A stretch of 64,000 bases of DNA. Origin: Neoarius graeffei (lineage: Eukaryota; Chordata; Actinopteri; Siluriformes; Ariidae). The translations under genes were made by a program, and so were the position numbers. Below are positions 16,277 to 52,946 of this stretch, in pieces (position 1 is the first letter of the stretch; every line of letters begins with the position of its first letter). A model generated the notes under the pieces. The model was not told the origin of the DNA. It did not search any database and saw nothing but the letters and a program-made list of their open reading frames with translations. Location: contig NC_083572.1 in NCBI RefSeq assembly GCF_027579695.1, positions 12,727,915 to 12,791,914 on the forward strand. The letters run 5' to 3'.

Positions 16277-16487
16277 GTAAGTGTGACTCTAAGAAGTGAA
16301 TGTTTGAATGAAATATGACTGTTTATTTAAATGTACAGCACAGTTTGACACTTGGGCTATTTTGGCTCTTGTTTGTGTTGGCATGATGATTGCAAAAATA
16401 AGTCCCTTGAATTCCGTAGAATTTCAACTCATTTATCCAGATCACTATTTCACCATTATGCTTGTCTTCATCTATTTCTCTCTCTAG

Positions 16488-17220
16488 AGCATTCACAAAA
16501 AAAGCCAACGATCTAAAAAAAGATCTTTGTGTATATGTTAACCTCCTATCTGAGCGAAGTGCAAATCTGCAGAGTCACATTATAGAACTACAGAAGGTGG
16601 CTGATGACATTGACAAGACCAATAAGGGGGTGAAGATAGCACGCATTACCGGGGGAACTGCAGGGGCAGTTGGAGTCGCAGCTGCTGTTGGAGGTGTCAT
16701 ACTTTCCCCATTTACCATGGGGGCTTCGTTAGCAGTGGCTGCAGTTGGAGTTGGAGTTGCAGCAGCCGGAGGGGTCACTGGAGCTGGAGCTGCCATCACC
16801 AACAAAGTCCACACCAATATGGACAGCAAGAAGGTGGAAACAATCCTGAAAGAACACTCTGCACAGTTAGAGGAAATTGAGGAATGTGTAAAATGTATTG
16901 GCACAAATATAGTGTGTTTGAAGGCATATAACCTGGCCACATTAAAAGGGGTGGATTGGAATGCAGTGAAATTGGCTAGAATGGCACATAAGGTTGGAGA
17001 CAGTGTAGGAGTGATCGGAGCAGTCAACAAGTCCTCAGGTATGATTCAAGGCTTCGCGCTGAACTTGGAAGGGTACTTCAGCAAAGAAGACTCCAAGCAA
17101 CTGAAGAAGGGCTCTGAAGCCAAATTTGCCAAACAAATCCGCAGTTTGGCAATGCAGATGCAGACCAGCCTTGATGAGTTGATGACATTTCAAGGAATGG
17201 TGAAATCTGAAGGCATATAG
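16488..17220 (+). CDS. Apolipoprotein L-like protein, terminal exon
   Basis: The exon starts after the acceptor TTTCTCTCTCTAG and encodes about 244 residues to a TAG at 17218. An N-terminal amphipathic helix (KANDLKKDLCVYVNLLSERS) leads into KVADDIDKTNKGVKIARITG. Next is a long Gly/Ala-rich hydrophobic hairpin (GGTAGAVGVAAAVGGVILSP, FTMGASLAVAAVGVGVAAAG), followed by TNKVHTNMDSKKVETILKEH. That order is diagnostic of the ApoL family, whose members associate with membranes. The C-terminal part (about 110 residues) is helical and ends MTFQGMVKSEGI. Fish carry many apoL-like genes with poorly known roles, often interferon-responsive; no regulatory site is claimed here. An apparent upstream extension of the frame through the intron acceptor is not coding. 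The paralogue is not resolved. Confidence 0.85.
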
Positions 17221-28389: not shown

Positions 28390-29634
28390 CCACTTTGGGC
28401 CCCTTCTGGACGAAGATGAAGAGAGAGCTCTATCTGAGGGGTCTTCATCACCCCTCTCCTTCTCTTCATATTCTGATTCCTACTCCTCCTCCCCGTTTTC
28501 TTCCTCCTCAGCTCCTGATCCTCTAAGATGTAAAGGCGGGTGTGATGTGCCATTCCCCTGGCTGTCTGCTGGTGAGCAGATTGATGCTCATTTTAGGGCA
28601 GACCAGAGAGAAGGTGAAGATGTAACACCAAAGTGCACTAATGGTTTCACTTGTAGTTAAATAAGTGTCATTATTTTACTGTTATGCATTTTTATTCAAA
28701 AGGAAAGGTTAATGAACATTTTGTTACAGGGGGTGCGTTTTCAGGCATGGACTGGATGACCGAGAAGCTCGACCTCAGTGATTTTGATCTGGATTCACTC
28801 ATTGGCTCCTGTGATTTGGATGAGCCTCCCAGCTCTCCGGAGGAGCTACTGGCATCCCTGGAGTCCCAAGTGGATCTGGATTTGGCTTCGCTCCCATTCC
28901 AGTCAGCATCCACACCTGTTACGGAAGAGGTCAACCTGCCTCCTTTCCCTGTAGATCTACCAGTTGAGTCAGAGATCCACCCTGAACCTGTTTCTGTTGA
29001 GATCAAATCTGAGCCAGTCTCTCCAGCTCCTGCTCCTCAATCACCTTCATTCACACTAGAGTTGGGTAGTGAAGTTGACATCTCCATCTCAGAGCTGGAG
29101 AAAATGCCCAAGGTCAGTGCTGACAACCAGACCCCCAGTTTTGTGCTCACCCTCTCCCCTGCCCACATAGTTGTGGTTCTCGCTCCCAAAGAAGAGCTGA
29201 GCATTTCCAACTCTTCTTCAGACCAATCCGACAGTGGTATTGAATCTGGATCCAGTTCTCCTCCATATGTACAGAGTCCTGTTCCATCTCCCAAACCTGC
29301 TGGTGCCTCCAGAACCAAACCCTACTCCAAACCTGACCCTGATGCAACTTTAGAGGTTGTTAGTAAAGTTAAGACTGTATCTGGAACGACCAAAACAGTA
29401 GATAAGAAACTGAAGAAAATGGAGCAGAATAAGACGGCAGCTACTCGCTACAGGCAAAAGAAAAGGGTGGAGCAGGAGAGCTTGAATGCGGAATGTACTG
29501 AGCTGGAGAAGAAAAACCGAGAGCTGGCAGAGAAGGCAGACTCGATCAGCCGGGAGATCCAGTACCTCAAGGATCTCATTGAAGAAGTCCGTTCAGCAAA
29601 GAACCGAAAAAAGTCCAAGGACACCTCTTCATAA
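28316..29634 (+). CDS. atf4: Activating transcription factor 4 (bZIP)
   Basis: CDS joins 28316-28571 and 28730-29634, 386 residues (human is 351). The donor at 28572 (GTGAGCAG) and acceptor TTTTGTTACAG at 28729 keep frame as ...WLSA-G-GAFSGMDW. The first exon part starts MTLSLQMCAEEMGTLFLGSS. The acidic middle contains LSDFDLDSLIGSCDLDEPPS. A beta-TrCP degron DSGIES lies at residues 253-258. The basic region MEQNKTAATRYRQKKR (about 316-331) is followed by a leucine zipper with heptad L337, L344, L351, I358, L365 and V372. ATF4 is a nuclear activator of amino-acid synthesis, redox and ER-stress genes and dimerises with C/EBP-type partners. Two upstream ORFs in the leader control its translation. 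Fish have two paralogues (a and b), and I cannot say which this is. Reading through the intron gives a false stop at 28658. Confidence 0.95.
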
Positions 29635-43132: not shown

Positions 43133-43146
43133 AAGGTTGTTGTTTA

Positions 43147-43525
43147 GGGCGGCACGGTGGTGTAGTGGTTAGCGCTGTCGCCTCACAGCAAGAAGGTCCT
43201 GGGTTCGAGCCCCGTGGCCGGCGAGGGCCTTTCTGTGTGGAGTTTGCATGTTCTCCCCGTGTCCGCGTGGGTTTCCTCCGGGTGCTCCGGTTTCCCCCAC
43301 AGTCCAAAGACATGCAGGTTAGGTTAACTGGTGACTCTAAATTGACCGTAGGTGTGAATGTGAGTGTGAATGGTTGTCTGTGTCTATGTGTCAGCCCTGT
43401 GATGACCTGGCGACTTGTCCAGGGTGTGCCCCGCCTTTCGCCCGTAGTCAGCTGGGATAGGCTCCAGCTTGCCTGCGACCCTGTAGAACAGGATAAAGCG
43501 GCTAGAGATAATGAGATGAGATGAG
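43147..43525 (+). repeat. tRNA-derived SINE with 11-bp target duplication
   Basis: Nearly consensus copy flanked by GTTGTTGTTTA at 43136-43146 and 43526-43536. Confidence 0.95.
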
Positions 43526-43563
43526 GTTGTTGTTTAATAATATAATAATTAATAATTGATTTC

Positions 43564-43942
43564 GGGCGGCACGGTGGTGTAGTGGTTAGCGCTGTCACCT
43601 CACAGCAAGAAGGTCCTGGGTTCGAGCCCCGGGGCCGGCGAGGGCCTTTCTGTGTGGAGTTTGCATGTTCTCCCCGTGTCCGCGTGGGTTTCCTCCGGGC
43701 GCTCCGGTTTCCCCCACAGTCCAAAGACATGCAGGTTAGGTTAACTGGTGACTCTAAATTGACCGTAGGTGTGAATGTGAGTGTGAATGGTTGTCTGTGT
43801 CTATGTGTCAGCCCTGTGATGACCTGGCGACTTGTCCAGGGTGTACCCCGCCTTTCGCCCGTAGTCAGCTGGGATAGGCTCCAGCTTGCCTGAGACCCTG
43901 TAGAACAGGATAAAGCAGCTAGAGATAATGAGATGAGATGAG
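43564..43942 (+). repeat. tRNA-derived SINE with 12-bp target duplication
   Basis: Nearly consensus copy flanked by ATAATTGATTTC at 43552-43563 and 43943-43954, 26 bp from the previous SINE's duplication. Confidence 0.95.
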
Positions 43943-44315: not shown

Positions 44316-45926
44316 CAGTGGTGCTTGAAAGTTTGTGAACCCTTTAGAATTTTCTATATTTCTACATAAATATGACCTAAAACAACATCAGATTTTCACA
44401 CAAGTCCTAAAAGTAGATAAAGAGAACCCAGTTAAACAAATGAGACAAAAATATTATACTTGGTCATTTATTTATTGAGGAAAATGATCCAATATTACAT
44501 CTCTGTGAGTGGCAAAAGTATGTGAACCTCTAGGATTAGCAGTTAATTTGAAGGTGAAATTAGAGTCAGGTGTTCTCAATCAATGGGATGACAATCAGGT
44601 GTGAGTGGGCACCCTGTTTTATTTAAAGAACAGGGATCTATCAAAGTCTGATCTTCACAACACATGTTTGTGGAAGTGTATCATGGCACAAACAAAGGAG
44701 ATTTCTGAGGACCTCAGAAAAAGCGTTGTTGATGCTCATCAGGCTGGAAAAGGTTACAAAACCATCTCTAAAGATTTTGGACTCCACCAATCCACAGTCA
44801 GACAGATTGTGTACAAATGGAGGAAATTCAAGACCATTGTTACCCTCCCCAGGAGTGGTCTACCAACAAAGATCACTCCAAGAGCAAGGCATGTAATAGT
44901 CAGCGAGGTCACAAAGGACCCCAGGGTAACTTCTAAGCAACTGAAGGCCTCTCTCACATTGGCTAATGTTAATGTTCATGAGTCCACCATCAGGAGAACA
45001 CTGAACAACAATGGGGTGCATGGCAGGGTTGCAAGGAGAAAGCCACTGCTCTCCAAAAAGAACATTGCTGCTCATCTACAGTTTGCTAAAGATCACATGG
45101 ACAAGCCAGAAGGCTATTGGAAAAATGTTTTGTGGACAGATGAGACCAAAATAGAATTTTTTGGTTTAAATGAGAAGCGTTATGTTTGGAGAAAGGAAAA
45201 TGCTGCATTCCAGCATAAGAACCTTATGCCATCTGTGAAACATGGTGGTGGTAGTATCATGGTTTGGGCCTGTTTTGCTGCATCTGCGCCAGGACGGCTT
45301 GCCATCATTGATGGAACAATGAATTCTGAATTATACCAGCAAATTCTAAAGGAAAATGTCAGGACATCTGTCCATGAACTGAATCTCAAGAGAAGGTGGG
45401 TCATGCAGCAAGACAACGACCCTAAGCACACAAGTTGTTCTACCAAAGAATGGTTAAAGAAGAATAAAGTTAATGTTTTGGAATGGCCAAGTCAAAGTCC
45501 TGACCTTAATCCAATTGAAGTGTTGTGGAAGGACCTGAAGCGAGCAGTTCATGTGAGGAAACCCACCAACATCCCAGAGTTGAAGCTGTTCTGTCCGGAG
45601 GAATAGGCTAAAATTCCTCCAAGCCGGTGTGCAGGACTGATCAACAGTTACCGGAAATGTTTAGTTGCAGTTATTGCTGCACAAGGGGGTCACACCAGAT
45701 ACTGAAAGCAAAGCTTCACAAACTTTTGCCACTCACAGATATGTAATATTACATCATTTTCCTCAATAAATAAATTACCAAGTATAATATTTTTTGTCTC
45801 ATTTCTTTAACTGGGTTCTCTTTATCTATTTTTAGGACTTGTGCGAAAATCTGATGATGTTTTAGGCCATATTTATGCAGAAATATAGAAAATTCTAAAG
45901 GGTTCACAAACTTTCAAGCACCACTG
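44316..45926 (+). mobile_element. Tc1 transposon, family A copy 2, 1611 bp, both ends intact
   Basis: Long terminal inverted repeats (about 210 bp, start CAGTGGTGCTTGAAAGTTTG) with TA at 44314-44315 and 45927-45928. Same length as the copy at 9802. Confidence 0.97.
44683..45705 (+). pseudogene. Tc1 transposase, family A, 340 codons with a single stop
   Basis: Start ATG at 44683 (MAQTKEISEDLRKSVVDAHQ); an earlier in-frame ATG at 44605 lies in untranslated sequence. There are two HTH motifs (GYKTISKDFGLHQSTVRQIV; RVTSKQLKASLTLANVNVHE) with a GRPR-like linker region between. The catalytic triad is DD34E: WTDETK, QQDNDPKH, SPDLNPIE. The only lesion is TAG at codon 308 (45604-45606), where the copy at 9802 has Trp (EEWAKIPPS). 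The frame then continues to GGHTRY and stop. The lesion removes only the last 33 residues, beyond the catalytic core, so partial function is conceivable but unproven. Confidence 0.95.
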
Positions 45927-46375: not shown

Positions 46376-47115
46376 AACAAACAAGTAAACAACTAAATAA
46401 AACCAAGGAAACAAAAACAAGCAAATTAATGAATAAATGAACAAACAAGTAGATAAATCAGTGTAAGAAAAAATGTAAACAAATATGCAAACAAACATAG
46501 AAAACCAAGGAAGCAGACAAATAAAAAAATGTAAATAAACTAAGAAAGCAAATAAAGGAAAGACACCTAAACAAATAAACAAAAGAAAGGAAACATGTAC
46601 AAATAGGTAAATGAAACCAAATACAAAACACACAAACAAGCAAATAAATGAATCAATTAGTAAATAAAGGAAAAATACATAAACAAATCAGCAAATAAAT
46701 AAATAAAACCAAGGAAGCACACAAACAAACAAAACAAACAAATGAATGAATGAATAAATCAATAAACAATCAAAACAAATAAATGAATGAATGAATGAAT
46801 CAGTAAACAAACAAACAAAACAACACAGAAAACCAAGGAAGCAGACAAATTTTAAAAATGTAAATAAACAAAGAAAGCAAATAAAGAAAAGACACTTAAA
46901 CAAAAAACAAAAGAAAGGAAACATGCACAAATAGGTAAATGAAACCAAATACAAAACACACAAACAAGCAAATAAATGAATCAATTAGTAAATAAAGGAA
47001 AAATGCATAAACAAATCAGCAAATAAGTAAATAAAAGGAAGCACACAAGCAGACAAAACAAACGACTGAATGAATGAATTAATTAATTAATTAATTAATC
47101 AGTAAATAAAGCAAA
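46376..47115. repeat. A-rich minisatellite built on AAACAAATAAA-type words
   Basis: Imperfect short repeats (AACAAACAAG, AAATAAATGAATG). A longer block (ATACAAAACACACAAACAAG...) occurs at about 46619 and again at about 46948, giving a roughly 328-bp duplication. The hydrophobic minus-strand frames here are by-products of the base composition. Confidence 0.8.
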
Positions 47116-47351
47116 GACACCAAAGCGTCAAATAAAGACGTCCTGACAGTTTAAATAATTTCTACTTTTATTTTAAAATACTCGAGTATAATTGAGTATG
47201 GACACTACTTCAACTTCACTTCAGTATAATTTTGACTAACCACGCCCACTCAATCCCATTCTGAAGTCCATTCTTTCATTAAAGTGTCATTTCTCTCCTT
47301 TTTCCTACGGAAGCCAAGAGAGGCCCTTCGTATTATCTTTTTTTATTCAGC

Positions 47352-50300
47352 TTGTTATCCTGAGATAATGACATAATTAATTCAGGATCTTGAGAAAACA
47401 ACACAACTAATTCGAGATCTCGAGAAAACAAAACCGTTATTCCGAGATAACGACATAATTAATTCGGGATCTCAAGAAAACAACACAACTAATTCGAGAT
47501 CTCGAGAAAACAAAACCGTTATTCCGAGATAACAACATAATTAATTCAGGATCTTGAGAAAACAACAGAACTAATTCGAGATCTCAAGAAAACAAAACCG
47601 TTATTCCGAGATAACAACATAATTAATTCAGGATCTCGAGAAAACAACACAACTAATTCGAGATCTCGAGAAAACAAAACCGTTATTCCAAGATAATGAC
47701 ATAATTAATTCGGGATCTCGAGAAAACAACACAACTAATTCGAGATCTCGAGAAAACAAAACCGTTATTCCGAGATAACAACATAATTAATTCAGGATCT
47801 TGAGAAAACAACAGAACTAATTCGAGATCTCGAGAAAACAAAACCGTTATTCCGAGATAACGACATAATTAATTCGGGATCTCAAGAAAACAACACAACT
47901 AATTCAAGATCTCGAGAAAACAAAACCGTTATTCCAAGATAACGACATAATTAATTCAGGATCTTGAGAAAACAACAGAACTAATTTGAGATCTCAAGAA
48001 AACAAAACCGTTATTCCGAGATAACGACATAATTAATTCAGGATCTCGAGAAAACAACACAACTAATTCAAGATCTCGAGAAAACAAAACCGTTATTCCG
48101 AGATAATGACATAATTAATTCGGGATCTTGAGAAAACAACACAACTAATTCGAGATCTCGAGAAAACAAAACCGTTATTCCGAGATAACGACATAATTAA
48201 TTCAGGATCTTGAGAAAACAACAGAACTAATTCGAGATCTCGAGAAAACAAAAACGTTATTCCGAGATAACGACATAATTAATTCGGGATCTCGAGAAAA
48301 CAACACAACTAATTCAAGATCTCGAGAAAACAAAACCGTTATTCCGAGATAACGACATAATTAATTCAGGATCTTGAGAAAACAACAGAACTAATTCGAG
48401 ATCTCAAGAAAACAAAACCGTTATTCCGAGATAACGACATAATTAATTCGGGATCTCGAGAAAACAACACAACTGATTCGAGATCTCGAGAAAACAAAAC
48501 CGTTATTCCGAGATAATGACATAATTAATTCGGGATCTCGAGAAAACAACACGACTAATTCGAGATCTCGAGAAAACAAAACCGTTATTCCGAGATAACG
48601 ACATAATTAATTCGGGATCTCGAGAAAACAACACGACTAATTCGAGATCTCGAGAAAACAAAACCGTTATTCCGAGATAACGACATAATTAATTCGGGAT
48701 CTCGAGAAAACAACACAACTAATTCGAGATCTCGAGAAAACAAAACCGATATTCCGAGATAACGACATAATTAATTCGGGATCTCGAGAAAACAACACAA
48801 CTAATTCGAGATCTCGAGAAAACAAAACCGTTATTCCGAGATAACGACATAATTAATTCGGGATCTCGAGAAAACAACACAACTAATTCGAGATCTCGAG
48901 AAAACAAAACCATTATTCCGAGATAACGACATAATTAATTCGGGATCTCGAGAAAACAACACAACTAATTCGAGATCTCGAGAAAACAAAACCGTTATTC
49001 CGAGATCACGACATAATTAATTCAGGATCTCGAGAAAACAACACAACTAATTCGAGATCTCGAGAAAACAAAACCGTTATTCCGAGATAACGACATAATT
49101 AATTCAGGATCTCGAGAAAACAACACAACTAATTCGAGATCTCGAGAAAACAAAACCGTTATTCCGAGATAACAACATAATTAATTCGGGATCTCGAGAA
49201 AACAACACAACTAATTCGAGATCTCGAGAAAACAAAACCGTTATTCCAAGATAACGACATAATTAATTCGGGATCTTGAGAAAACAACAGAACTAATTTT
49301 AGATCTCGAGAAAACAAAACCGTTATTCCGAGATAACGACATAATTAATTCGGGATCTCGAGAAAACAACACAACTAATTCGAGATCTCGAGAAAACAAA
49401 ACCGTTATTCCGAGATAACGACATAATTAATTCGGGATCTCGAGAAAACAACACAACTAATTCGAGATCTCGAGAAAACAAAACCGTTATTCCGAGATAA
49501 TGACATAATTAATTCGGGATCTCAAGAAAACAACACGACTAATTCGAGATCTCGAGAAAACACAACCGTTATTCCAAGATAACGACATAATTAATTCGGG
49601 ATCTTGAGAAAACAACAGAACTAATTTTAGATCTCGAGAAAACAAAACCGTTATTCCGAGATAACGACATAATTAATTCGGGATCTCGAGAAAACAACTA
49701 ATTCGAGATCTCGAGAAAACAAAACCGTTATTCCGAGATAACGACATAATTAATTCGGGATCTCGAGAAAACAACACAACTAATTCGAGATCTCGAGAAA
49801 ACAAAACCGTTATTCCGAGATAACGACATAATTAATTCAGGATCTTGAGAAAACAACAGAACTAATTCGAGATCTCGAGAAAACAAAACCGTTATTCCAA
49901 GATAACGACATAATTAATTCGGGATCTCAAGAAAACAACACAACTAATTCAAGATCTCGAGAAAACAAAACCATTATTCCGAGATAACGACATAATTAAT
50001 TCAGGATCTTGAGAAAACAACACAACTGATTCGAGATCTCGAGAAAACAAAACCGTTATTCCGAGATAACGACATAATTAATTCAGGATCTCGAGAAAAC
50101 AACACAACTAATTCGAGATCTCGAGAAAACAAAACCGTTATTCCGAGATAACGACATAATTAATTCGGGATCTCGAGAAAACAACACAACTAATTCGAGA
50201 TCTCGAGAAAACAAAACCGTTATTCCGAGATAACGACATAATTAATTCAGGATCTCGAGAAAACAACACAACTAATTCGAGATCTCGAGAAAACAAAACC

Positions 50301-50790
50301 GTTATTCCAAGATAACGACATAATTAATTCGGGATCTCGAGAAAACAACACAACTAATTCGAGATCTTGAGAAAACAAAACCGTTATTCCGAGATAACAA
50401 CATAATTAATTCAGGATCTCGAGAAAACAACACAACTAATTTGAGATCTTGAGAAAACAAAACCGTTATTCCGAGATAACAACATAATTAATTCAGGATC
50501 TCGAGAAAACAACACAACTAATTCGAGATCTTGAGAAAACAAAACCGTTATTCCGAGATAACGACATAATTAATTCAGGATCTCGAGAAAACAACACAAC
50601 TAATTCGAGATCTCGAGAAAACAAAACCGTTATTCCGAGATAACGACATAATTAATTCGGGATCTCGAGAAAACAACACAACTAATTCGAGAGCTTGAGA
50701 AAACAAAACCGTTATTCCGAGATAACGACATAATTAATTCAGGATCTCGAGAAAACAACACAACTAATTCGAGAGCTTGAGAAAACAAAA
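47352..50790. repeat. 82-bp tandem array, 42 units
   Basis: The unit reads CCGTTATTCCGAGATAACGA, then CATAATTAATTCGGGATCTC, GAGAAAACAACACAACTAAT and TCGAGATCTCGAGAAAACAAAA. From 47434 to 50791 the distance is 3357 bp, which equals 41 units of 82 less 5 bp; one unit near 49695 lacks ACACA. A variant first unit precedes them. Each unit has three related sub-blocks starting ATTCCGAGAT, ATTCGGGATC and ATTCGAGATC. The repeated AGATCTCGAG contains overlapping BglII and XhoI sites. Confidence 0.97.
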
Positions 50791-50944
50791 CCGTTATTTC
50801 GAGATCTCGAGAAAACAAAACAATTATTTCATGATCTCGAGTAAACAGCTGAGAAATGGTTCATTCAGGTGCGCCAAGAGACTTGTGATATGCTGACTTT
50901 GGGGCTATTTCTCATTCTGTATAGACGCAACTTTGGTCATTAGA

Positions 50945-51130
50945 ATGTCTGGAATAATCGATCACCTAATAAGGCAATATTTTGATCAGGGGTTGACGCA
51001 GGGAGAGATTGTATTAAGTCTTTTAATAAGGGATAATTTCAAAATTAGTCCGCGGCACCTCCGCAGAAGACTGGCCCGGCTTCGTCTCTACCGACGGAGA
51101 TACAGTGATCCAGCTGAGATCATGAAATAA
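50945..51130 (+). pseudogene. Transposase N-terminal fragment (HTH-like)
   Basis: The frame from the ATG at 50945 reads MSGIIDHLIRQYFDQGLTQG, then EIVLSLLIRDNFKISPRHLR and RRLARLRLYRRRYSDPAEIM, and stops where the right terminal repeat begins. It has a helix-turn-helix look (LTQGEIVLSLL...ISPRHLRRRLARL) and a basic tail. I recall this as the N-terminus of fish proteins with an integrase core, but the core is absent here. The preceding in-frame ATG at 50933 adds four residues and is less likely. Confidence 0.65.
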
Positions 51131-51379
51131 TTGTTTTGTTTTCTCGAGATCTCGAATTAGTTGTGTTGTTTTCTCGAGATCCTGAATTAATTATGTCGTT
51201 ATCTCGGGATAACAAGGTGAATAAAAAAAAGGATTATATGAAGGGCCTCTCTCGGCTTCCGTATTTTTCCACCACGCGCACATCACTTTATTTTTTTCAT
51301 CCTCCAAAACAAGTGGTGGCGCTGTTGAATTCAGTTTGTCGAACATCCGGGTCAAACAAAATTAATAAACAAAGAGGAA

Positions 51380-51500: not shown

Positions 51501-52016
51501 CAGGACAAACTCCAACTCAAGAGTTTCATCATTTGAGCTCCGGTCATTTTAATGAAGGTTTTCTTCTTCAAAAGTTTGTTTGGAAGTTCAGCGATTTGGT
51601 GTATCATATTTAGCAGTGTTTTACGGAGGTAGGCTTCGTCATTTAATTAATATCAAACAACAAAAAATGTCAAAAATGACTAAAATCAGACATGACTGGA
51701 TATATTTGTGTTTATTTCCGGATATTAGACTGTTTTTTGTTTTGGTTCAACAGATTTTCATTGATACTTCAGTATTTCATGCTAATTCAAATATTTAATC
51801 TTTTTAAACATTTTTAGTATGTTAAGTGTTGGTTTAATATTAATTAAGGGAATGTTACCATTGGTGGTTCAAGAGTGACATCATCTAAACAAACACATCT
51901 TGACTTCCACAATGAAAATTATTTTCTTTCAACCTGCTTCTTTCTAAAATAAATAAGTAAAACTTGTTGTTGTGGTTATGTACAATACATTTTCCCAAAA
52001 CAGAACATCATCCAGC

Positions 52017-52946
52017 ATGTCCTGCCCAGAGAATTACGTGATTTGGAAATCAGGTCACGTAAAGGCGTACCTTCATCCTTCTCCATGGACTCCAGGGGCC
52101 ACAGTCGTGACCCACAATCCCCCTGAAACCCCAAACAACCTTTTCCGCTTATCCGAATCCTCCTTCCTGAGCCTTCTCTTGGGAGCACGGGCAGTCGGAG
52201 ATCTCCTCTGCAAGCGTCTCTGCGTCCAGCGCTGCGCTCTCGTCTACAAACCCGATTGTGATCACAGCACACCTGCAAATCTGCTGCTTCTTCCTCTTCA
52301 TGGCTTGGAGGACAAGTGGAGGCCGCATCTGGCTCCTGAGGAAGACTTTCAGCCTTATGATCCCGGCTATATAACTTCCAAAAGCGGTCCACGATGGACT
52401 GATCTTAACCTGGAAGCTGTTAAAGGTAGAATTCGGGTCAGACTGCCTTCTCCAGACGCCCCTCTTAACTACACGTTCCTTGGAGAACCGTCACACCCAG
52501 GGTTGTTTTCTCGTATCGTACGAGGAGAGGAGAAGCAGTGGAGGGTTTGGGAGGATGAAGGCCATGTTGCCTTTCTCACACCATTCCCCAACACTCCAGG
52601 TCTCACGGTGGTGATTCCACGCAAACCGCTCACCAGTGACATCCTCCGACTAGAGGATGGGGATTACACAGAGCTGGTGCTGGCAACCCGGAAGGTCGCG
52701 AGGTTCCTAGAAGAAGCACTGGGAGCATGGGGAGTGGGGGTCATATTTGAGGGGTTTGAAATTGACTATGCTCATGCTAAACTGATTCCTTTGGTTTCAC
52801 CACCAGGCAATGTGACGCAGAGTGATGTGTGCTCAGTACCAGAGTTTTATGATGTGTATCCCGGGTTTGTGAGCTCAGCTAACGGGCCGCCAGCTAGTTC
52901 TGCACATTTAAGTCAGATCCATGACAAAATCACCAAAACGTCCTAA
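52017..52946 (+). CDS. Tandem HIT-like domain protein, 309 aa
   Basis: Start MSCPENYVIWKSGHVKAYLH; an upstream in-frame ATG at 51972 is separated by an acceptor-like TTTTCCCAAAACAG, so 52017 is preferred. Two halves resemble each other and the histidine-triad fold. Residues 7-97 run YVIWKSGHVKAYLHPSPWTP...NLLLLPLHG. Residues 175-262 run WRVWEDEGHVAFLTPFPNTP...GLTVVIPRKPLTS...FEIDYAHAKLIPL. HIT hydrolases use H-x-H-x-H. Here the second half has Tyr251, His253 and Lys255, so only the central His (the usual nucleophile) remains; the first half has none. A two-domain HIT layout recalls GalT and Ap4A phosphorylase, but those signatures are not seen. The role is unknown: perhaps a weak nucleotide hydrolase or a binding protein. 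GC-rich, intron-free coding here contrasts with its AT-rich flanks. No signal peptide. Confidence 0.75.
   Translation: MSCPENYVIWKSGHVKAYLHPSPWTPGATVVTHNPPETPNNLFRLSESSFLSLLLGARAVGDLLCKRLCVQRCALVYKPDCDHSTPANLLLLPLHGLEDKWRPHLAPEEDFQPYDPGYITSKSGPRWTDLNLEAVKGRIRVRLPSPDAPLNYTFLGEPSHPGLFSRIVRGEEKQWRVWEDEGHVAFLTPFPNTPGLTVVIPRKPLTSDILRLEDGDYTELVLATRKVARFLEEALGAWGVGVIFEGFEIDYAHAKLIPLVSPPGNVTQSDVCSVPEFYDVYPGFVSSANGPPASSAHLSQIHDKITKTS

Follow-up and report, generated by a model that had tools for sequence, protein, structure and literature searches.

A 42-unit tandem array in one terminal inverted repeat of a non-autonomous, IS3EU-like transposon of Neoarius graeffei and its probable separate growth

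INTRODUCTION

Tandem repeats inside the terminal inverted repeats (TIRs) of DNA transposons have been described in several systems (papers are cited here and below from excerpts). In Galileo, a member of the P superfamily in Drosophila, the long TIRs contain direct tandem repeats, and one copy may carry unequal numbers of them on its two sides; the authors suggest that these repeats hold secondary transposase-binding sites (PMC3573991). In the foldback-like Tetris/TIR-220 of Drosophila virilis, TIR-internal repeats are amplified to up to 66 copies, for which unequal crossing-over was proposed (PMC4079207). The Xenopus miniature inverted-repeat transposable elements (MITEs) Xstir and miDNA4 carry internal or TIR-derived tandem repeats in variable number (reviews PMC12628747 and PMC9659126). 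Here we describe a transposon at positions 47306 to 51263 of a 64,000-nucleotide stretch of Neoarius graeffei contig NC_083572.1 (the whole stretch being called the window), in which one TIR holds an array of 42 units and the other a single unit. Very probably, this array grew separately in one arm of a non-autonomous transposon of the rva_4/IS3EU type, starting from a founder two-unit state.

RESULTS

The array lies within one terminal inverted repeat

The element is 3,958 bp long and is bounded by matching ends and a 7-bp flanking duplication (Table 1). The original prediction, made from the letters of the window, had described these ends, the TTTTTCC flanks, a common path from both ends into an 82-bp unit, and 42 units on the left with one inverted unit on the right; this description was found to be exact to the base. 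The terminus TACGGAAGCC opens the element at 47306 and its complement closes it at 51263. Without the unit, the outer arms (48 and 50 bp) show 88% alignment identity over 50 columns, and this rises to 92% over 137 columns when the first unit is included. The right-arm unit differs from the array consensus at 3 of 82 positions. The tail that bounds the array on its inner side, CAATTATTTCATGATCTC, recurs on the inner side of the right arm, and this shared inner boundary implies that the array grew within a TIR and not merely beside one, in support of the prediction that this is a transposon with an array grown in one TIR. A chance match of the flanking 7-mers has a probability of about 7e−5 (for one 7-mer pair and independent bases); TTTTTCC is a somewhat common word here, with 5 occurrences on one strand of the window and 13 on the other. 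The rest of the window contains no second copy of the unit (best outside match, E = 0.30). At either extremity of the element, the last 27 bp (47306-47332 and 51237-51263) are by themselves an imperfect palindrome.

Table 1. Features of the transposon and its flanks, in window coordinates
Feature	Position	Strand	Remarks
Left flanking duplication TTTTTCC	47299..47305	.	
Outer left TIR, TACGG terminus	47306..47353	+	48 bp
Array of 42 units	47354..50792	+	41 x 82 bp and 1 x 77 bp; unit made of 22 + 30 + 30 bp sub-repeats
Unit 29	49650..49726	+	77 bp (5-bp deletion)
Inner end of left arm	50793..50852	+	extra ~30-bp sub-repeat starting GTTATTTCGAG (presumed exchange partner) and tail common to right arm
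Unique core	50853..51117	+	whole or partial in other family copies, 96-100% identity
61-amino-acid open reading frame	50945..51130	+	resembles rva_4 (PF24764) transposase N terminus; stop in inner right arm
Single inverted 82-bp unit, right arm	51132..51213	-	
Outer right TIR, CCGTA terminus	51214..51263	-	50 bp
Right flanking duplication TTTTTCC	51264..51270	.	

One-armed expansion recurs in other copies

The element's own genome assembly (2.34 Gb, 38 contigs) was searched with three queries. With the left end, the best 40 of 1,622 candidate regions were scored; with the 61-amino-acid open reading frame (ORF), the best 150 of 3,123 first-look candidates; and with two units, the best 40 of 568, the matches listed for this last query falling in 32 distinct regions, 15 of which were read. 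Copies were called complete when both ends were recognized by a 24-bp end pattern with at most 6 mismatches, which gave 40 distinct copies. Unit starts were counted against the 23-bp start of the unit, and the counts vary with the mismatch threshold (at most 4 or at most 5).

At the stricter threshold, the element of the window has 42 unit starts in one arm and 1 in the other, and in 15 of the 40 copies of this selected sample one arm reaches 7 or more while the opposite arm does not exceed 3. The expanded arm is the 5' one in eight of them (window, L052, L055, L065, L067, L047, L057, and L056) and the 3' one in seven (C5, L059, L043, L066, L045, L068, and L028), with 7 to about 94 units per expanded arm; the assignment of arms is less certain in L055 and L052, whose cores are inverted or nested. 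At the looser threshold, which includes the inner partial repeat, the count for this element becomes 43 and the expanded copies become 16, L051 being added for its 30-mers. A preference for one arm was considered and rejected (8 versus 7 of 15 at the stricter threshold, 9 versus 7 of 16 at the looser one). Nor do we claim that the arms exclude each other: with 16 expanded arms among 80, the absence of doubly expanded copies has a chance probability of 0.15 in what is moreover a biased sample.

The longest copy lies at C5:5403253-5411474 (L062/L060/L063; the C5 copy above). It measures 8,222 bp, has both ends and the flanks GTCAAA/GTCAAG, and carries 79 unit starts at the stricter threshold and 94 at the looser one. 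Above the unit, a period of about 1,060 bp (also 2,038 and 2,120) runs within its one arm, a nascent higher-order structure. Another copy, L059 (C4:12223100-12226900), has 31 units in one arm and 1 in the other and lies on the same contig as the window, about 0.55 Mb away, with units at most 99% like those of the window. In L051, the 5' arm is expanded in the 30-bp sub-repeat, with 32 30-mers and only 1 or 2 strict 82-bp unit starts.

To relate the arrays to one another, 212 units from nine arrays were compared, the outermost units and those of other length being dropped. The nearest neighbor of a unit lay in its own array with a frequency of 0.753, compared with 0.202 in 200 label permutations (maximum, 0.268). 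Private variants, that is, variants shared by at least three units of one array and absent elsewhere, were found in five of the nine arrays (window, C5, L059, L043, and L055); examples are, in the 40 units used from the window, 51G (8 units) and 17A (6 units), and, on C5, 21C (19 of 76 units). This clustering of units by copy implies that the arrays grew separately. Two copies with a common inverted core, L050 and L055, align at about 89-92% and yet have 1/3 and 22/1 units, respectively. The array of the window is absent from the other copies examined. An array older than the ends in sister species had been named as a finding that would overturn the original prediction; the two-unit state seen in other copies probably does predate this insertion.

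A hybrid junction between units

The unit is composed of one 22-bp and two 30-bp sub-repeats (right-arm autocorrelation of 0.688 at lag 30 and 0.477 at lag 22), and none of 2,000 letter shuffles reached either value at any lag from 20 to 39. Among the 43 repeat starts of the left arm, the outermost reads GTTATCC, the next 41 have TC at bases 6 and 7, and the terminal partial repeat reads GTTATTT. All 41 internal junctions are of the inner type at base 6 and of the outer type at base 7; compared with both parents over their length, they are inner-type through base 6 and outer-type from base 7, save for scattered single-base departures. Such a hybrid is what a single unequal exchange, or slippage, involving two related sub-repeats would be expected to leave, and, judged from sequence, the founder junction resembles the outcome of one unequal exchange between related sub-repeats of about 30 bp.

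The same signature runs through the family. In 79 arms of the 40 copies, the outermost start carries CC in 74 and TC in 5, while the 409 inner starts carry TC (333), TT (60), CC (14), or CT (2). An exchange that took place within the copy of the window was rejected, since the identical junction occurs in both arms of many copies. A founder junction common to both arms and to most copies implies that the two-unit state is shared by descent or conversion and that separate growth followed.

Variation within the array

The array is rich in CpG, with an observed/expected ratio of 2.22 compared with 0.48 in the rest of the window, and its variation is concentrated there. Of the 82 positions of the unit, 14 are CpG positions, and these account for 67 of the 86 substitutions from the consensus in units 2 to 42; 65 of the substitutions are CpG transitions. 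Between the 40 full-length units, which represent 31 distinct sequences, the mean pairwise difference is 19.3% at CpG positions and 1.27% elsewhere.

A high-copy non-autonomous family

The element belongs to a high-copy non-autonomous family. The original prediction would have failed had the two ends belonged to different repeats or had related elements lacked the flanking duplication; the 40 complete copies show the ends to be those of one family, and the duplication is present among relatives. It is exact and 6 bp long in 24 copies and 7 bp long in 2 (this element and L057), with no exact duplication of 5 to 8 bp in the remaining 14. The 7-bp duplication is thus exact at this locus and is not the norm of the family. 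Among the 14, the C5 copy, L066, L044, and L017 match at 5 of 6 positions, and L013, L028, and L052 have no flanking duplication at all. Six more (L024, L027, and L032-L035) have identical flanks, since in them the element is nested in a different repeat and was copied along with it, and L037 looks like a seventh. An element of about 600 bp occurs at an identical site inside a repeat of about 1.15 kb in L027:639-2391 and in 17 of 28 other loci of L009-L038 (L010 left out). This repeat copies the element along with itself, so that part of the copy number of the family is hitch-hiking.

All 40 complete copies have TA as their first and last dinucleotide, and 34 fit TAYGG..CCRTA fully, a likeness that is partly by construction, as the copies were found by an end pattern. 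Copy length is 553 to 933 bp in 24 of the 40, and 21 of these 24 have 1 to 3 unit starts per arm. The 61-amino-acid ORF was found in at least 150 places, with 98-100% identity among the matches listed and mostly as an open frame of 77 codons. High copy number, homogeneity, and the lack of a full transposase are the marks of a MITE or other non-autonomous family, and TIR-internal tandem repeats of variable number are a foldback-like trait, the likeness to Galileo and Tetris being one of described structure.

The putative transposase fragment and the superfamily

IS3EU elements have TA..TA ends (TAYGG..CCRTA in a fungal set) and usually a 6-bp target duplication, and they occur in zebrafish (PMC10045372, PMC12730594, and PMC4746887). 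The element of the window ends in TACGG..CCGTA, and the duplication is 6 bp at the level of the family (24/40), this element itself having 7 bp. A short transposase fragment had been predicted between the arms. By length the ORF is unremarkable, as 12% of 2,000 dinucleotide shuffles reach 60 amino acids, and the element has no catalytic core of the IS3/IS481-like DDE transposase expected of IS3EU. In a two-sequence database, the ORF aligned with two rva_4 (PF24764) ORFs of the same genome, with 27/52 and 23/48 identities, which upholds its resemblance to a transposase N terminus. In both, the alignment starts near the first residues and rva_4 follows downstream above the cut-off, and they continue where the element's ORF stops, in the inner right arm. 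Clr5 appeared again as a weak match (E = 0.0046) in one of these two ORFs. For six other rva_4 places (L072-L077), taken from the head of the rva_4 listing, an E-value limit of 1 produced nothing that matched the N terminus, and a scan allowing 7 mismatches detected none of the family ends; two of them had a stretch with 8 mismatches. An AlphaFold model of residues 2 to 61, made with no alignment, has three helices (mean predicted local distance difference test score, 80; predicted template modeling score, 0.62). We take rva_4 proteins to be IS3EU transposases. The superfamily, called unproven at first, is now indicated as rva_4/IS3EU, because the ORF resembles rva_4 N termini and the ends and duplication length fit IS3EU.

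Other searches gave no further assignment: there were no matches in Rfam at gathering thresholds, NCBIfam, or PHROGs, none in viral contigs or prokaryote genome contigs, and 13 weak ones among PDB sequences (best E = 0.0054), mostly to phycobilisome proteins and judged to be due to chance.

Arrays remain attached to transposon ends

At up to 4 mismatches, 7 or more unit starts were counted in 19 distinct arrays. In 18 of them a transposon end adjoins the first unit; both ends are present in 15 of the 18, and three (L064, L069, and L071) run beyond the stretch examined. No free satellite array was found among the 19 long arrays and the 15 of 32 array-query regions read. In L012:480-510, an array of about 11 to 12 units has lost the outer ~50 bp, and its first unit abuts unrelated sequence; this is a possible first step toward a transposon-free array. 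Of the original prediction, growth of the array inside one arm is supported, and the asymmetry recurs in other copies; a satellite seed in the sense of free satellite DNA is not supported. Satellites have been linked to this superfamily elsewhere: the oyster satellites CgiSat35 and CgiSat47 are annotated as DNA/IS3EU (PMC8268682), and one half of TCAST10, a Tribolium repeat, is similar to an IS3EU element (PMC5844308).

Surroundings of the element

Directly upstream lies an AAAC-rich tandem repeat (46475-47087) with a period of 328, equal to 4 x 82; it was tried as a relative of the unit and has no sequence relation to it. An ORF with a HIT domain (51972-52943) lies about 0.7 kb from the right end of the element. 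Farther away are an apolipoprotein L ORF (16462-17217), a bZIP ORF (28684-29631) that resembles ATF4, and a tandem 417-bp repeat (43143-43942; 1.9 copies, 98% matches). A Tc1-like transposase (44605-45603) forms a 333-amino-acid open frame with a helix-turn-helix domain of the Sleeping Beauty type and a DDE_3 domain, and the window has other transposase and reverse-transcriptase ORFs.

DISCUSSION

Proposed origin of the array

The element may be understood as a MITE-like deletion derivative of the rva_4/IS3EU kind, presumably mobilized in trans, its own coding capacity for the transposase having been lost, with TIRs built from sub-repeats of about 30 bp. In the ancestor of the family, unequal exchange or slippage would have joined the outermost GTTATC/CCGAG with the inner GTTATT/TCGAG, duplicating an 82-bp block and leaving between the units the hybrid junction GTTATT/CCGAG, which is seen as a sequence signature. 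Copies with few units per arm would then have spread. Later, in single copies, the block in one arm would have grown separately, as the clustering of units suggests, probably by repeated unequal exchange or slippage, with end points of 7 to about 94 units; the present copy would have reached 42 in its ORF-proximal (5') arm.

Several results weigh against parts of this account. The copies were selected by their likeness to the left end, the ORF, or the array, so that frequencies are biased and 15/40 is not a frequency. Neighboring units are no more alike than others (lag 1, z = 0.04; 1,000 permutations), the lowest of 20 lags being lag 5 (z = −3.49, P = 0.003) and lag 20 (z = −2.41, P = 0.013); given this pattern, the step size of the later growth cannot be read from the array. 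No private shared variant was found in four of the nine arrays (L045, L047, L056, and L057, with 3 to 11 units used). The junction is the mark of a single event in the ancestor, not of 41 events, and the T at base 6 could instead be a point mutation of the founder. As to the superfamily, the transposase link comes from two of the eight rva_4 places looked at, at about 50% identity; Pfam gave for the ORF only Clr5 (E = 0.023, below the cut-off) and one weaker match; and the ORF model had 29 matches to PDB folds at E ≤ 10 and none at E ≤ 0.001. The searches of the same genome made it possible to compare unit number per arm and yielded no autonomous partner with these ends among the loci examined.

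Alternative explanations

The long arrays might descend from a single master copy, expanded once and spread by transposition, with later contraction as the only source of difference between copies. The founder junction, alike in nearly all copies and in both arms, indicates that the two-unit state did spread in this manner, and the four arrays without private shared variants agree with it. For the long arrays the explanation is largely refuted by the clustering of units by copy (0.753 versus 0.202) together with the private variants in five of nine arrays; long arrays also lie in opposite arms of different copies (8 versus 7 of 15), and the related L050 and L055 differ as 1/3 and 22/1. We therefore consider it very unlikely. 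That repeat assembly produced the array length is highly improbable: the exact number of tandem units is often wrong in assemblies, but here 31 distinct sequences among 40 full-length units, the private variants, expansion at at least 15 separate places, and an assembly of 38 contigs for 2.34 Gb all speak for real arrays. Insertion of a transposon into or beside an older satellite is hardly credible. Nothing other than the tandem organization favors it, and it was rejected because the flanking duplication lies outside the array, the array runs into TIR sequence at either edge, the right arm carries the unit in inverted form, and the rest of the window lacks it.

More weight is due to function, although separate growth can be explained without any function of the unit. 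The original prediction saw in the unit a probable transposase-binding site and in its amplification a possible means of titrating transposase, and the expanded arm may have been selected if extra putative binding sites aid mobilization or, in excess, titrate the enzyme. The sub-repeats are dyad-like (GTTATC..GATAAC, CGAGATCTCG), the single-stranded unit folds better than shuffles (z = −2.92), and the TIR tandem repeats of Galileo are described as holding secondary transposase-binding sites (PMC3573991 and PMC4079207). Against this, the outer arms fold no better than shuffles (z = −1.20 and −1.16), 21 of the 40 copies have 1 to 3 unit starts in each arm although the sample leans to arrays, and the variation within the array (86 substitutions, 65 of them CpG transitions) reflects mainly CpG decay. 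We regard selection as unlikely. One-armed expansion could also be a by-product of the transposition reaction itself, a suggestion that we find rather doubtful. The transposase would nick or partly excise one end, gap repair from the sister copy would slip among the ~30-bp sub-repeats, and each failed excision would lengthen the repaired arm. If true, the family would generate nascent satellites of its own accord, the other arm providing an internal control.

Comparison with known systems

The step from transposon end to satellite has been proposed earlier from insects, frogs, and other families, and both this idea and the asymmetry of the arms are already published for Galileo and Tetris. Here, one family in one genome covers unit numbers from 1 to about 94 in either arm, the unexpanded arm serving as internal control; most examined copies have a recognizable flanking duplication, and the first duplication can be read at the base level. 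Growth rate, step size, arm choice, and any influence of the transposase thus become testable in one species. In the literature searched, limited to excerpts from one paper library, we found no account of arrays in IS3EU-type TIRs; the unit strings had no match there, and only a 10-base end string did.

Unlike Galileo, which belongs to another superfamily and is described with repeats of about 210 bp in at most 3 copies, the present family has 42 to about 94 units of 82 bp in its longest arrays. The Xenopus Xstir and miDNA4 are alike in being vertebrate MITEs with variable repeats, and the families differ. Tetris shares the tandem amplification inside the TIR and the route from transposon to satellite (PMC4079207). 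As far as the excerpts cited go, its transposase is not known and many of its arrays lie apart from the ends, whereas here the host element is a MITE of the rva_4/IS3EU type, the arrays lie mostly between transposon ends, and the founder junction is readable. Apparently new are the scale that a single arm has reached, the many times that expansion of only one arm has arisen separately in the same genome, and this readable founder junction.

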